IMG/VR virus record: IMGVR_UViG_3300035698_023245
Location: 1-50,717 of that record
Strand: one strand, 5' to 3'
DNA from: a virus
DNA: 50,717 nt
Shown: positions 38,780-50,717 of the stretch, one piece after another
How the letters are laid out: each line of letters begins with the position of its first letter
How positions within the stretch are numbered: position 1 is the first letter of the stretch
The notes under the pieces: generated by a model
The model's input: the letters and a program-made list of their open reading frames with translations, nothing else
Databases searched by the model: none
What the model was told of the DNA's origin: nothing
Position numbers and translations under genes: made by a program

Positions 38780-38893
38780 TTAGATTAAACTAGCTAGATA
38801 TATTCCTAGCAGAACTATAAAAACAAGAGCAAGAAATATAAGTACAGAAGTAAAACAACAACAATATACGGCTGTATCAGAATTATCGTTCAT
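38780..38893 (-). CDS. Small single-span membrane protein
   Basis: The 37-residue product has a run CCCFTSVLIFLALVFIVLLG, a single membrane helix with three N-terminal cysteines. Its ATG overlaps the upstream stop as TAATG. Function unknown. Confidence 0.5.
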   Translation of the reverse strand: MNDNSDTAVYCCCFTSVLIFLALVFIVLLGIYLASLI

Positions 38894-39321
38894 TAGACTA
38901 CAATCCAATCTTTGCCTGCCATGTCACCACTGTTAACAATCCATTTATAGTTCCTTCCATCGGGTTTGTGAAGTGAAAGAATATCGTCATTCATAAAACC
39001 ATAATAGTTTTTGTCTTTCCACTCTAACTTGTGTATTTTTTTGCCATTTTTCACTTCACGTAATGCTTGCAAAAAATTCATGCCAGTTTTTAATTGAGCT
39101 GTTTGCACATCTTTGTTAGCCGGACTTTGTTTTGGGCTTAGTTTTATTTCTTCTACTAATTCGTGTGCAAATAACTTAAAACCGCTATCTACCCACGCTT
39201 GTAGTTTATCTGCTGGAACAGTTTTTGCAAAATCAACACTAATAATTCTATCAAAAGTCTTATTCTCATATACCTGTGTTTTTGCGTTATAAACAAAACC
39301 GTTATCTTCTAAAATTTTCAT
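38893..39321 (-). CDS. Tad2-like (DUF2829) protein with extra N-terminal domain
   Basis: The last 62 of 142 residues match the DUF2829/Tad2 pattern: MNFLQALREVKNGKKIHKLE, then W-K-D-K, and the end GDMAGKDWIVV, where the family has S/T-x-x-D-(M/L)-x-A-x-DW. Tad2 proteins bind the signalling nucleotides of Thoeris-type defence and block it. The first 75 residues are an unrelated, charged domain. A role as an anti-defence sponge is an inference from the family. No SD stronger than AAGG was seen. Confidence 0.7.
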   Translation of the reverse strand: MKILEDNGFVYNAKTQVYENKTFDRIISVDFAKTVPADKLQAWVDSGFKLFAHELVEEIKLSPKQSPANKDVQTAQLKTGMNFLQALREVKNGKKIHKLEWKDKNYYGFMNDDILSLHKPDGRNYKWIVNSGDMAGKDWIVV

Positions 39322-39425: not shown

Positions 39426-40847
39426 CTACAGTTTTATTTCTTTGATTTTTTGTATTAGTGCGTTTTTATCTTGTTCTAGCATTTCCATAACTGAGAATAT
39501 CTTTTCAGAGAACCCAGCGATGCAAAAAACGTTACGTTGAGGAAACTGCATTGTGCCATACCCCTGCAAGTCAAAAGAATAGACCATAGGATCAGCACCA
39601 GTACGTTCTTTATAGTAGCTAAAACTGCTGGTAGGATTATCGTGATGTATCCAACCTTGCATGTCAGATAAGATAATTATGCGGTCATATTTTTCTTTTG
39701 CGATGTTAAAGATAGAGTGGAAGTTAGTACCACCTTCTATTGCGTCATCTTCTAAACGTTGTGCAATAGACATCGTAGAATCGCCTGGATTCAGGTTTTT
39801 GAATCGTGCATCATTTGAGAACGTTACTAAGTCAGCGTCGTTTGTTTTGTAGAGAATAGCAGCAAACAGAGAACCGATTTTAATAGGTTTACCGTTCATA
39901 GAGCCAGACTCGTCAAGGGCTATTAGAGTTCTTCCATCAAACTTCGGTACGTTTGCCAAAGATATCTCGACCGCTTCTGAGATAGACGTAATAACCTTTC
40001 TAACTTTAGGGCTAGATAGTTGTTCAATTTCATGCATAGCAATTTTGAATCTGAATGGTAATATAAGAGATTTCTTGATTCTATTTTCATCTACCAACAG
40101 CTCACAAGCTTGGTCAACCATTTCTGGTGACTGTTCAATGATGTTACGTAGGTTACGTAGCAATGCAAAAGAACCTATTTTTTTGCTAGTGATAAGCTCT
40201 TTCCAAGCTTCTGCCTTTGCTTCTTCTTTGTTTTCTGACTCACCAGCTTTTGTTAGTTTTGCTTCCCATGTATCTTTTGAACGTAGTGTATCTTTAATCA
40301 GCTTTTCCAATGCCTTCGCATTTTTTGCTGTTGGTACTGGATGAATCATGTTAACAGCATCAACCAAACTAAGCTCGTGTTTTTCACCACGATATTTAGC
40401 GATTTGGTATTCGTTAAAGTTACCTAGAGCAAGCGACAAACCCTTTTTAAGAGAGTTTGGTAATGGCTTGCCGTATTTACTTAAGTAGTACGCAATGATT
40501 TCTGTAATATCATCTACACGATGTACTACTTTATTGTAGAAGTATTTAGTCCATTCTTCGCCTTTTACTTGTTTGGCGATTTCACCAGCTACTACATGAG
40601 AAATAGAACGCATTCCAAATTCTTGACGGGCAAAGATAGCTGCTTTTGCAACAAACTTTTTGTCTAGGCGTTCTATCAAACTGCATAGAATTGTAAGCGT
40701 TTCATTTTCGTCACGATAGTATTGGTCTTTGACGAATGATGTTAATAAAATTGATACAAATACTAGTTCTGGTGATTGGCTAAAAGCCTCACCACCTGCT
40801 AGATTTTCTGTTTTTGTACCAACTGCTTTTGTTGAGAATTTTGACAT
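39426..40847 (-). CDS. rsr: Ro60/TROVE-domain RNA-binding protein (Rsr)
   Basis: The 473-residue protein has a TROVE ring of helical repeats (about 20-300), with ILLTSFVKDQYYR and FGMRSISHVVAGEI as conserved segments. A von Willebrand A domain (about 305-470) has an intact MIDAS: DESGS (312-316), Thr374 in GGTNFHS and Asp395 in LSDMQGW. Ro60 proteins bind misfolded RNA in the ring hole and Y RNA on its outer face; in bacteria they work with exoribonucleases such as PNPase. SD AAGGAG precedes the ATG. Four Y-RNA-like elements fill the upstream gap, which makes the assignment strong. Confidence 0.92.
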   Translation of the reverse strand: MSKFSTKAVGTKTENLAGGEAFSQSPELVFVSILLTSFVKDQYYRDENETLTILCSLIERLDKKFVAKAAIFARQEFGMRSISHVVAGEIAKQVKGEEWTKYFYNKVVHRVDDITEIIAYYLSKYGKPLPNSLKKGLSLALGNFNEYQIAKYRGEKHELSLVDAVNMIHPVPTAKNAKALEKLIKDTLRSKDTWEAKLTKAGESENKEEAKAEAWKELITSKKIGSFALLRNLRNIIEQSPEMVDQACELLVDENRIKKSLILPFRFKIAMHEIEQLSSPKVRKVITSISEAVEISLANVPKFDGRTLIALDESGSMNGKPIKIGSLFAAILYKTNDADLVTFSNDARFKNLNPGDSTMSIAQRLEDDAIEGGTNFHSIFNIAKEKYDRIIILSDMQGWIHHDNPTSSFSYYKERTGADPMVYSFDLQGYGTMQFPQRNVFCIAGFSEKIFSVMEMLEQDKNALIQKIKEIKL

Positions 40848-40890
40848 TTCGCTGTCTCCTTTTAAGAGAAGTAACTAGTTATTTTCAAAT

Positions 40891-40967
40891 GAATGGGAGA
40901 AAGTTTACAAGAGTGCTGTGTTAACATTTGGAAGGTTATGGAGTAACTCATGTATCACTGCCCATTC
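40891..40967 (-). ncRNA. Y-RNA-like element 4 (short form)
   Basis: On the minus strand GAATGGG and CCCATTC close a 7-bp outer stem. Inside lie the conserved strands CAGTGATA and AAACTTTCT, then a 7-position inner stem (CATGAGT with ACTCTTG, one U-U mismatch) and a loop of about 30 bases beginning TACTCC. It is nearest to Ro60 and shares the internal loop with the other three. Confidence 0.75.
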
Positions 40968-40984
40968 GTTAAAGGGGTTTTTTA

Positions 40985-41123
40985 TTCAAGGGAGAAAGTC
41001 GATAAAAGTGTGTACGCTCTTGCAAGCGTGAGCGTACTCTTACAAGTATGCTTTAAGGGATCGAACCTTATCATATCTGTTAGGATATTTTAACCGGAGT
41101 AACTTTTATCTCGCTGCCCTGAG
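40985..41123 (-). ncRNA. Y-RNA-like element 3 with tRNA-like module
   Basis: The outer stem is TCAGGG with CCCTTGA (one bulge), the conserved strands are CAGCGA and GACTTTCT, and the inner stem is nine perfect pairs (GATAAAAGT with ACTTTTATC). The head holds, in order, a hairpin ATATC/GATAT, a T-arm TAAGG-TTCGATC-CCTTA (41054-41070), an acceptor-like stem GCATACTT/GAGTACGC capped by GTAA (41032-41051, one A-C mismatch) and a D-like hairpin CGCT/AGCG (41015-41028). This is the order of a circularly permuted tRNA. Confidence 0.8.
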
Positions 41124-41132
41124 TGAGATCAA

Positions 41133-41263
41133 TAACGGAAGAAAGTTTAGAAGGGAGATTGTAGTGCTCTGCCATTGAGCTATATTACCCGAAGGTAATA
41201 ATTGGAATCGAACCAATGACCTCTCCATTAGAGTGGAAGTATCCCTTCTATCGCTGTCCGTTA
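41133..41263 (-). ncRNA. Y-RNA-like element 2 (YrlA type, clearest tRNA mimic)
   Basis: The outer stem is TAACGGA with TCCGTTA (7 bp), the conserved loop strands are CAGCGATA and AAACTTTCT, and the inner stem is GAAGGGA with TCCCTTC (7 bp). The head has a hairpin CTCT/AGAG, a perfect T-arm ATTGG-TTCGATT-CCAAT (41201-41217), an acceptor stem TATTACC/GGTAATA closed by TTCG (41183-41200) and a D-arm GCTC-AATGGCA-GAGC (41166-41180). The 3' half of a tRNA precedes the 5' half, so it cannot be an ordinary tRNA gene. It matches the YrlA design. Confidence 0.88.
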
Positions 41264-41279
41264 ATATGTAATGTGCAGT

Positions 41280-41343
41280 TTTAGGAAGAAAATTTAAAAG
41301 AGTGTCTTTTTGATCGAAGTAACTCTTTTATCGCTGTCCTAAA
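41280..41343 (-). ncRNA. Y-RNA-like element 1 (short form)
   Basis: It starts six bases after the SPFH stop. The outer stem is TTTAGGA with TCCTAAA (7 bp), the conserved strands are CAGCGATA and AAATTTTCT, and the inner stem is eight pairs (TAAAAGAG with CTCTTTTA) around a 20-base loop starting TTACTTC. There is no tRNA-like module. It is the most upstream of the four tandem elements. Confidence 0.75.
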
Positions 41344-41348
41344 TTATG

Positions 41349-42188
41349 TTAATTTGCTATGTCTAGATTTATGAACGGTACCGTCGAATTTGGTAACATT
41401 TGTGTGGGTAGTTTACCGTCCCATTTACTGATTGATGACGCTTCATTTTCAATTCTGCGTAATTCAAGCAAGTCTGGTGTAATTGTTTTGTTAAGCAAAT
41501 CTTGTGCTTGTGCTTTACCTTCTGCTTCGATGATTTGAGATTGTGATTCACCTTCTGCTTTTGCAACCTTCTGTTCAGCCAAGAGTTTCTCTTTTTCTAC
41601 TTCGTATTTTTGTTGTTCTGACCCTTGTTGAGCTACTTGTTTCTGTTCAATGGCTGCATTGTATTCTGGTGAGAAATCAAGATTGGCGATGCTAACATCA
41701 TCAATGATTATTCCATATAGTTCTAAACGCTTACTAAGATTATCTTTAATAACTTGCTTAAGTTCTTCACGCTTCTGAATAAGTTCTTGAGCAGTGAATT
41801 GAGCAGTCGAAGCTTTGATTGACTCTGAAATTGCTGGATCGATTAAAGTATCTTTGTACTTCGTACCTACGTTCTTGTGAAGTTCTGCAACCTTGTCTCT
41901 TTGTAGATGGTAATTTAGTGCTACGTTCGCTTGTACCGTCTGCATGTCTGTACTAGCGGCAGCAGCCTCGTTATCTTCTCTTTGAATTTTTACGTTGTAC
42001 TTGGTGATATCTTTTGTAAAGTTATTGTAAAAATGCAAACCTTCTTCAAAGATACCTTCTACTTTTCCGTATTGAGTTATTACTGCTACATTACCTGCCT
42101 TAACGATGGTAAACGGCATGAATATACCAACCAATATTAACACTACAAGCACCAAAAACAAACCTATAAAACTTTTAGCATTGTTCAT
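41349..42188 (-). CDS. SPFH/prohibitin-stomatin family membrane protein
   Basis: The 279-residue protein has an N-terminal membrane helix (FIGLFLVLVVLILVGIFM), then the SPFH core beginning GNVAVITQYGKVEGIFEEGL, which is the typical opening of prohibitin-type domains. The second half is a long Gln/Glu/Lys coiled coil (VEKEKLLAEQKVAKAEGESQ) that drives ring assembly. Such rings organise membrane domains or shield proteases. It lies directly upstream of the Y-RNA array and shares its transcript. A small membrane protein gene overlaps its start. Confidence 0.9.
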   Translation of the reverse strand: MNNAKSFIGLFLVLVVLILVGIFMPFTIVKAGNVAVITQYGKVEGIFEEGLHFYNNFTKDITKYNVKIQREDNEAAAASTDMQTVQANVALNYHLQRDKVAELHKNVGTKYKDTLIDPAISESIKASTAQFTAQELIQKREELKQVIKDNLSKRLELYGIIIDDVSIANLDFSPEYNAAIEQKQVAQQGSEQQKYEVEKEKLLAEQKVAKAEGESQSQIIEAEGKAQAQDLLNKTITPDLLELRRIENEASSISKWDGKLPTQMLPNSTVPFINLDIAN

Positions 42189-42944: not shown

Positions 42945-44087
42945 TTACTCACCATGTTTTAGCAAGTACTCGTTGTTAATTACCTTGAACGATAATCTAC
43001 CAAGTTCTTCGTCTTGTTTTTCTACCAGTGGGCGAAACACCATGCCCTCTAGCCATTCTGTAGGCGCAATTAATGACTTTTTGGTAACATATTCGACCAT
43101 TTCATCAACAGTTGGCAAAAGCTTAAAATCTTCGCTTATGACTGGCACTGTTTTAACATTCAAGATGTTACAAAGAAGTTTGAAGTTTGGGTAATCAACA
43201 TACCTACCAGTTTTGAAGTTGTAAGCATTGAAGAAATAGACATCGTTCTCTTTAAGCAATAATCTATTGCTTTGAATACTAGGACCGACTAATTCACCTT
43301 GTAACGCAACTGCTTCGTTGTAATCTTTAAATCTGTCGTATAAACCAGATTTTAGAATTGGTTTCCAGAATTTGTTATTCTCATCTTTTGGATACATTAT
43401 ATTTCTACTGCATACCCATACTTCACCATTTTTTATGAAAACAGTTATGCTCGAACCATCTATTTTTTCTGTTACGTAGAACCGTTTTTCTGCGTGGCGT
43501 TGAAGTACTTCTGGCACGTTTTGCAAACGAGTCTCATCTGTTTTAGGTATGTATGAAGGAAACCGTTGCAAGTTACGCCCCCAAAGTTTTATCGCAAGTT
43601 TTGGCAACAACTTCTTAATGAACATACCAATCTTAACTGGTAACCAGTCTGGGAATATCACTGGTTTACGTGAAGCAGGTGTATTGCGCTGTTCTATAAT
43701 TTTTTCGTATTTAATAACGCCTAGTTTTTTGGTAACGTCTTTACCTTCATCTAAAACTTTTAAAACATCTGCAAATGCACTAACTGGTAAAGCTAATCCT
43801 TGTGAGATTTGTTTACGTAGTTTAATAGTGCGTAGACGATAACCAGAATGTTCTTTATGGTCTTTACCAATTATTGTTCTAACACCTCTATCCGCTAAAA
43901 ACTCAAACGCTGGTATAACAGGTAACAAACTATCAACTTCAAAATAAACACAGTAATCCCCTATTTTGAATTCACCTTTTTTGACTACAACATGCCAACC
44001 TTGAACGGTGGCGACTTCAATTCTATCAGCACCCTTAATTGGTTGCAGGTCTGCAATCTTTTGTATTGACGCTAATTTTCTAATCAT
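42945..44087 (-). CDS. RNA ligase, Rnl5-like (Deinococcus DraRnl family)
   Basis: The 380-residue protein begins MIRKLASIQKIADLQPIKGA, an N-terminal OB-like domain with GWHVVVKKGEF, typical of DraRnl (Rnl5). The ligase domain has motif I TEKIDGSS with Lys208 as the AMP-acceptor, motif III QGELVGPS, motif IV EGMVFRP (347-353) and motif V LSFKVIN (365-371). It should seal 3'-OH/5'-phosphate breaks in duplex RNA. Position just before the Ro60/Y-RNA operon suggests joint action in RNA repair. Confidence 0.88.
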   Translation of the reverse strand: MIRKLASIQKIADLQPIKGADRIEVATVQGWHVVVKKGEFKIGDYCVYFEVDSLLPVIPAFEFLADRGVRTIIGKDHKEHSGYRLRTIKLRKQISQGLALPVSAFADVLKVLDEGKDVTKKLGVIKYEKIIEQRNTPASRKPVIFPDWLPVKIGMFIKKLLPKLAIKLWGRNLQRFPSYIPKTDETRLQNVPEVLQRHAEKRFYVTEKIDGSSITVFIKNGEVWVCSRNIMYPKDENNKFWKPILKSGLYDRFKDYNEAVALQGELVGPSIQSNRLLLKENDVYFFNAYNFKTGRYVDYPNFKLLCNILNVKTVPVISEDFKLLPTVDEMVEYVTKKSLIAPTEWLEGMVFRPLVEKQDEELGRLSFKVINNEYLLKHGE

Positions 44088-50561: not shown

Positions 50562-50635
50562 TGGAGCTGATAGAAGGAATCGAACCATCATCAATAGTTT
50601 AAGAGACTACTGCTTTGCCGTTAAGCTATCTAACC
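50562..50635 (-). tRNA. tRNA-Lys(CUU)-like, acceptor stem degenerate
   Basis: Read on the minus strand, a D-arm GCTT-AACGGCA-AAGC, an anticodon arm GTAGT-CTCTTAA-ACTAT with anticodon CTT, and a T-arm GATGG-TTCGATT-CCTTC (one U-U mismatch) are present, followed by an encoded CCA. The acceptor strands GGTTAGA and TATCAGC pair at only four of seven positions. It may be a decaying gene, an edited tRNA or a decoy. Confidence 0.6.
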
Positions 50636-50643
50636 GATTTTTT

Positions 50644-50717
50644 TGGTGGGTCGCTTGGGACTTGAACCCAAAACTTATTCCTTAAAAGGGAATTACTCTA
50701 GCCAGTTGAGTTACCGA
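50644..50717 (-). tRNA. tRNA-Lys(UUU), 5' end cut by window edge
   Basis: On the minus strand the anticodon arm is ATTCC-CTTTTAA-GGAAT with anticodon TTT. The D-arm pairs ACTC with GAGT, and the T-arm is TTGGG-TTCAAGT-CCCAA. The 3' strand GCGACCC-A-CCA is encoded. About three bases of the acceptor 5' strand lie outside the window. Lysine codons AAA/AAG are frequent in this AT-rich genome. Confidence 0.85.

Follow-up and report, generated by a model that had tools for sequence, protein, structure and literature searches.

Four structured elements between the SPFH and Ro60 genes

What lies in the 501-nt gap between the SPFH and Ro60 genes of a tailed phage, and does it belong with the Ro60 protein? 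The gap is in IMG/VR record IMGVR_UViG_3300035698_023245, a 50,717-base tailed-phage fragment coding for a portal, a terminase, a major head protein, and UvsX, and referred to here in its entirety as the window. Four elements occupy the gap, all on the minus strand (the Ro60 strand) and separated by spacers of 16, 9, and 18 nt, and they are very probably Y RNAs that partner the phage Ro60 and bear distinct apical modules. Boundaries and sizes were set by two covariance models (R1 and R2) built from window and related elements; elements 1, 2, and 4 are in the training sets, and element 3 is in neither. The open reading frames (ORFs) and elements are arranged as follows.

41349-42188, minus strand: SPFH ORF
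41280-41343, minus strand: element 1, short, 64 nt; R1 72.6 bits (training member), motif scan
41133-41263, minus strand: element 2, long, 131 nt; R2 124 bits (training member); core as in the others, apex a predicted circularly permuted tRNA mimic
40986-41123, minus strand: element 3, long, 138 nt; R1 39.1 bits, R2 42.7 bits (E=2e-9), motif scan
40891-40967, minus strand: element 4, short, 77 nt; R1 66.8 bits (training member), motif scan
39426-40847, minus strand: Ro60 ORF (TROVE plus vWA domain), its start codon 43 nt after element 4

A scan of the full window strand for two stems around an NAGYRA and NNYUUUYY loop returned exactly four sites, which are the four elements; of 20 Markov copies of that strand, 18 yield no site and two yield one each, and all 200 randomized copies of the 530-nt region are free of sites. 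Folded singly, the elements have z-scores of -2.3 to -3.8, the lowest being that of element 1. Each has an outer stem, CAGYGA facing RAYUUUCU, and an inner stem, followed by a UUACUYC motif. Element 1 pairs UUUAGGA with UCCUAAA in its outer stem, sets CAGCGA opposite AAUUUUCU, and closes with the inner stem UAAAAGAGU/ACUCUUUUA and an apical UACUUC hairpin, and the corresponding parts of element 4 are GAAUGGG/CCCAUUC, CAGUGA facing AACUUUCU, and UACAUGAGU/ACUCUUGUA. A preliminary description of this DNA had proposed four same-strand elements with an outer stem, an inner stem, and a CAGYGA-type loop, and the scan confirms them. Of the sizes it gave (64, 131, 139, and 77 nt), only the third changes, to 138 nt in the covariance model. 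The asymmetric loop that it described also holds, and is more aptly represented by a single bulged C, 2 bp (AG/CU), and then CGA facing AAYUUU.

The core covaries across related elements

Alignment of related elements resolves a common core, which consists in order of a 7-bp helix, one bulged pyrimidine, 2 bp, an asymmetric YRA/NNYUUU loop, and an inner helix of 8-9 bp. In the short-element alignment 94.6% of cells are paired, and the covariation score is 0.933, compared with 0.246 for shuffled alignments (0 of 500 reach the observed value) and at most 0.24 for slid versions; the long-element alignment scores 0.772 against 0.224 when shuffled. The bulge above the 7-bp helix is C or U in 191 of 203 elements, and the 2 bp above it are paired in 400 of 406 cells, with the compensatory types AG/CU, GG/CC, AC/GU, UG/CG, and GA/UC. 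UUACUUC lies directly above the inner helix in almost every aligned element. The earlier suggestion that the stems differ in sequence while still pairing is thus upheld across related contigs.

Two of the caps resemble permuted tRNAs

The division into two short and two long elements stands, and the difference in length now has an anatomical basis: the long elements carry tRNA mimics and the short ones (elements 1 and 4) small UACUYC hairpins at the apex, with no tRNA module. The parts of the long elements are listed with the basis for each.

41166-41238, minus strand: tRNA-like module of element 2 (sequence; drawn structure; pair counts)
41054-41070, minus strand: T arm of element 3, UAAGG-UUCGAUC-CCUUA (sequence)
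41015-41034, minus strand: D-arm-like hairpin of element 3, CGCUC-ACGCUUGCAA-GAGCG (sequence; present in the minimum free energy fold)

In element 2, UACUUC leads into an anticodon-like arm (UUCCA-CUCUAA-UGGAG) and then AGGUC, a T arm (AUUGG-UUCGAUU-CCAAU), an acceptor strand UAUUACC sealed by UUCG, and finally UA and a D arm (GCUC-AAUGGCA-GAGC). From this order of arms, the apex reads as a tRNA that is circularly permuted and opened between positions 26 and 27. The structure as drawn has a free energy of -37.9 kcal/mol, compared with -39.8 kcal/mol for the minimum. Among 17 aligned long relatives the T and acceptor arms covary strongly and the D arm does not vary. Pairing in the anticodon-like arm reaches 85% of cells, and its two inner pairs show compensatory change. 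A 26/27-type anticodon arm is present in 53 elements (26 from phages and 27 from genomes); of these, 47 have U at position 33 and 49 have a purine at position 37, and the three anticodon letters vary. To our knowledge, apical tRNA mimics are absent from vertebrate Y RNAs. A separate class permuted at 43/44 was considered and is not claimed, U33 being present in just four of its nine members.

Could these be genes for working tRNAs, in which the long elements are cut and joined, perhaps by the phage RNA ligase encoded at 42945-44087? The anticodon arms with U33 and R37, the proximity of the ligase, and relatives with normal-order tRNAs, some annotated by their depositors as tRNA-Tyr, tRNA-Lys, or tRNA-Gln, are what such genes would lead one to expect. 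A functional tRNA also has a free 3' end for CCA and a 7-nt anticodon loop, whereas in element 2 UUCG links the acceptor strands and the loop has six bases. The acceptor strands are generally joined by short loops, often tetraloops, into which a discriminator and CCA cannot fit, so that the modules are mimics and not chargeable tRNAs. Moreover, element 3 is degenerate, the short elements have no tRNA, and the ligase does not recur near other arrays, which together make this a very improbable origin.

Even less credible is that the interval is a decaying tRNA gene cluster whose degenerate pseudogenes happen to precede Ro60. The T, D, and acceptor arms of the long elements would fit such a history, as would the tRNA-rich stretches in which related loci often lie and the two tRNA-Lys genes of the window itself (50566-50717). 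Covariation of the outer and inner stems already largely refutes it, however, and decay would not be expected to leave short elements without a tRNA, a common covarying Ro60-type core around every module, permuted arms with acceptors sealed by tetraloops, or a strict linkage to Ro60 in strand and position.

The arrays are linked to Ro60 in phages and bacteria

A scan of viral sequences with the single Ro60 protein gave no match, and the phage collection contains no DNA-level relatives of the window; searching with aligned phage Ro60 proteins added 80 viral contigs. In a half-site scan, all 119 partnered elements lie on the strand of Ro60 and the opposite strand has none. The covariance-model search at viral Ro60 loci, which the preliminary description had put forward as a check, gave 139 R1 matches across 586 kb of phage loci from 77 sources. 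Every match shares the strand of Ro60, almost all lie a short way upstream of that gene, and covariation is supported.

Where at least 2.4 kb of upstream sequence is available, the arrays comprise one to six elements, separated by a median of 11 nt. They occur in the cultured phages CcrColossus (five elements), Olaya (three to four), Gurke (three), and BRock (two), and close relatives are found in Verrucomicrobiota and Bacteroidota; the bacterial contigs are chiefly Verrucomicrobiota and Saprospiraceae metagenome-assembled genomes, with isolates including Chthoniobacter flavus and Brevifollis gellanilyticus. Four tandem Y RNAs had initially been thought to lack precedent in phages, a view that we abandon: arrays of one to six members are common in phages (cultured ones included) and bacteria, and since tandem arrays are common in the Ro60 clade of the window, four is not exceptional. 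The human Y1/Y3/Y4/Y5 cluster supplies four small RNAs for one Ro60. Chen and colleagues reportedly noted in 2014 likely Y RNAs close to Ro60 in over 250 species of bacteria and phages, each species having one or more with a tRNA-like domain. We looked for a conserved neighborhood (SPFH, RNA ligase, Tad2-like) in the related loci and found none; as the non-Ro60 neighbors do not recur, Ro60 and the RNA array form the linked unit.

Conserved strand and upstream position also suit a cis-acting leader, with the stems remaining in the 5' untranslated region of the Ro60 mRNA, where Ro60 would repress its own translation or the stems would set mRNA stability. The array ends 43 nt from the Ro60 start with no terminator detected between, and a CAGCGA directly precedes the ATG. 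Some arrays or members, however, are hundreds of bases away from Ro60, on one side or the other (loci L035, L051, and L009), other loci do not conserve the CAGCGA at the ATG, and autoregulation has no need of elaborate sealed tRNA mimics. We therefore consider a leader improbable as the explanation of the array, although it may be a role that the elements have in addition to acting in trans as Y RNAs.

Comparison with known Y RNAs

In a broad sense, Y RNAs are encoded next to Ro60 or Rsr and have a 7-bp helix with a bulged C and an asymmetric bulge opposite. The elements of the window and nearly all of the matched loci are encoded in this way, on the same strand, and the helix and both bulges are present in the window. 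The Ro60 site of vertebrate Y RNAs is a 7-bp helix with a single bulged cytidine and a 3-nt bulge opposite (PMC4726728), and the likeness to our elements extends to the helix, the single bulged C, and the opposite asymmetric loop; it is a likeness of structure. The proposal that the interval encodes the Y RNAs of the phage Ro60 is supported by this covarying stem resembling a Ro60 site, by same-strand linkage to Ro60 across dozens of phage and bacterial settings that are unrelated to one another, and by a sub-threshold match of element 2 to the Rfam YrlA family (RF02553).

YrlA, as in Salmonella YrlA (PDB 6CU1), shares with the elements an Rsr/Ro60 basal stem with CGA facing an ACUU-type loop, a permuted tRNA-mimic apex with T, sealed acceptor, and D arms, and encoding beside Ro60. 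It differs in that here the 26/27 junction bears the Y stem as an extra helix and UUACUYC lies above the inner stem in all elements. The YrlA tRNA mimic is circularly permuted (PMC11472068) and is described as having D, T, and acceptor arms (PMC8394870). This permuted set of arms is present in element 2, weakly so in element 3, and not in elements 1 and 4. The RF02553 consensus has no anticodon-like arm, and element 2 and about 50 relatives depart from it by keeping one. The retained arm therefore appears to be a new feature relative to the Rfam consensus and to YrlA as described (PMC8394870, PMC11472068). Falling below the YrlA threshold, the elements are best regarded as a divergent group or a sister group and kept out of YrlA.

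Several observations weigh against the Y RNA reading. The evidence for it is comparative throughout, and the alignments used for counts were built from motif-selected hits, which inflates the selected letters, not the covariation of the stems. Element 2 scores 34.8 bits (E=7e-6) with RF02553, short of the gathering score of 69 bits, which none of 36 further loci passes; the best score among cultured phages is 50 bits. The loci of other phage Ro60s (phiLo, Vibrio phages, and HGTV-1) gave no convincing element match, and around the array we found no sigma-70 promoters or terminators above background. Element 3 has an imperfect outer stem that needs a bulge, and its module is a weak tRNA mimic with a clear T arm, a D-like hairpin, and a degenerate acceptor, and the anticodon-like loop of element 2 has one base fewer than the usual seven. 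ARAGORN called 15 of 24 de-permuted modules, and these calls are not used because shuffling the anticodon segment gives nearly as many (11.7 expected).

Among related systems, the Salmonella rsr-yrlBA-rtcBA operon (PMC7790460) also has more than one Y RNA per Ro60 orthologue and an RNA ligase gene close by; it has two Y RNAs and RtcB, whereas the phage has four upstream of Ro60 and a T4-type ligase. The Deinococcus radiodurans RYPER complex (Rsr-Y RNA-PNPase; PMC8394870) is alike in its Ro60 fold and in having a distal Y RNA module as the proposed tether, the tRNA-like apex binding PNPase (PMC8394870). The PNPase tether is described for D. radiodurans, and the phage system differs in having several alternative distal modules. 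In Listeria phage CKA15 (PMC12282133), candidate Y RNAs likewise precede a Ro60/Rsr gene on its own strand; they fall in three highly transcribed regions, whose RNAs are not structurally defined there; here the anatomy is resolved by covariation. Insofar as they are cited in PMC12282133, where the context is mycobacteriophages, Chen et al. 2014 predicted Y RNAs in phages. Y RNAs near phage Ro60 genes have thus been noted before, and what is now resolved is their anatomy, one Ro60-type core with interchangeable caps. In the records that we examined the arrays are unannotated or partly labeled as tRNAs, and the Rfam model misses them.

Ro60 and the neighboring genes

The Ro60 ORF has a TROVE domain (Pfam, E=3e-20, cut-off passed) and a vWA domain whose metal site (MIDAS, DxSGS) is intact, reading DESGS, with a vWA_Ro60 score slightly under its cut-off (23.9 versus 27.7 bits); phrog_850 ("RNA-binding protein") matches it with E=2.6e-40. 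An AlphaFold2 model (predicted local distance difference test score [pLDDT] 82.7) resembles the Ro60 of Thermus phage phiLo, D. radiodurans Rsr (PDB 2nvo), and vertebrate Ro autoantigen structures; its fold matches to Ro60 in the PDB have template modeling (TM) scores of 0.66-0.72, with one exception at 0.58. The ribosome-binding region of Ro60, 40848-40858 on the minus strand, is GGAGACAGCGAAATG and holds the CAGCGA half-site right before the ATG. We considered this half-site as a fifth element or autoregulatory site and rejected it for its lack of conservation in related loci; it is probably there by chance. Two further genes lie close by.

42945-44087, minus strand: RNA ligase with a PHA02142 OB fold and an RNA_ligase domain; shares the strand of SPFH and lies some 0.8 kb upstream of it
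38893-39321, minus strand: Tad2-like (Thoeris anti-defence) domain protein, directly downstream of Ro60

What the array might do

By analogy with known Ro60 and YrlA biology, we infer that the Ro60 ring would grip each RNA by its basal stem. The spacers leave no room for separate promoters, which implies a single precursor that needs processing; most likely the elements would be cut from one precursor running on into the Ro60 mRNA, although the processing route is speculative. The apices may then serve as effector modules, with hairpins on elements 1 and 4 and tRNA mimics on elements 2 and 3, and the resulting ribonucleoproteins (RNPs) could act as gates or tethers on Ro60, their tips bringing different partners, such as nucleases or tRNA-binding enzymes, during infection. 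The identity of these clients is likewise a matter of speculation.

For Salmonella YrlA, Hughes et al. suggest a role in tRNA decay or, alternatively, as a competitive inhibitor of an anticodon nuclease (PMC7790460). A phage that combines a decoy bearing an anticodon with genes for an RNA ligase and a Tad2-like protein would fit a conflict over tRNAs, and we offer this as a suggestion only, since the ligase is not conserved beside other arrays. The anticodons displayed among relatives include those of Asn, Ser, Lys, Ile, Thr, Asp, and Pro, among others. We can envisage, as a tentative and rather unlikely scenario, that Ro60 RNPs carry a set of sealed tRNA mimics, which cannot be charged and present various anticodon loops, and use them to decoy, inhibit, or recruit enzymes that act on tRNA, chiefly the anticodon nucleases that hosts deploy against phages. 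An anticodon-like arm kept on a sealed permuted tRNA is unexpected, and it makes a role of Ro60 RNPs as tRNA decoys or adaptors testable. Caulobacter phage CcrColossus and Brevundimonas phage Gurke can serve in the laboratory for studying what Y RNAs do, a matter on which understanding is poor in every organism.

Further Y-type elements and associated RNAs

In several related loci, Y-type stems enclose genes annotated as tRNA-Tyr and tRNA-Lys (csAssE-Sib), tRNA-Gln (cr111_1 and CcrColossus), or tRNA-Ser (Gurke), and these may be misannotated Y RNAs. The enclosing stems are:

L008:2638-2768 and L008:2784-2915
L006:1841-1972
L171:2069-2235
L175:2713-2846

Other Y-type elements have an apical tRNA in the normal arm order (D, anticodon, T); the Rfam tRNA model covers only about positions 4-67 in L068, L084, L152, and L165, with most of the acceptor stem missing. 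These normal-order elements are:

L067:2641-2770
L068:2643-2771
L084:2824-2954
L152:2730-2855
L165:2483-2625

A second class consists of very large Y-type elements of 214-285 nt, which share the basal core and have a big conserved insert, for example GAGGUGAAAAAGUCC...GGUCACU..ACUAUCGG..GGGAGAAUUC. They match no Rfam family, fall into two sequence subtypes, and are usually preceded by a short element. They occur in LR745206 (a 635-kb uncultured phage) and in contigs of up to 476 kb, and include, among others:

L001:4625-4909
L018:2646-2916
L022:2696-2921
L028:2678-2898
L044:2701-2914
L062:2568-2831
L042:2665-2924
L048:2686-2927

In Verrucomicrobiota and other bacteria, the Ro60-Y RNA array lies within or beside long tRNA arrays at L141, L164, L150, L117, L111, L152, L165, L145, and L115, which suggests that mobile tRNA-array islands carry Ro60; L115 also has a GOLLD RNA at 868-1297. 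In Brevundimonas phage Gurke, a permuted tmRNA (RF04321, 57.7 bits; L175:6288-6633), which carries no annotation in the stretch inspected, is located about 2 kb downstream of Ro60.
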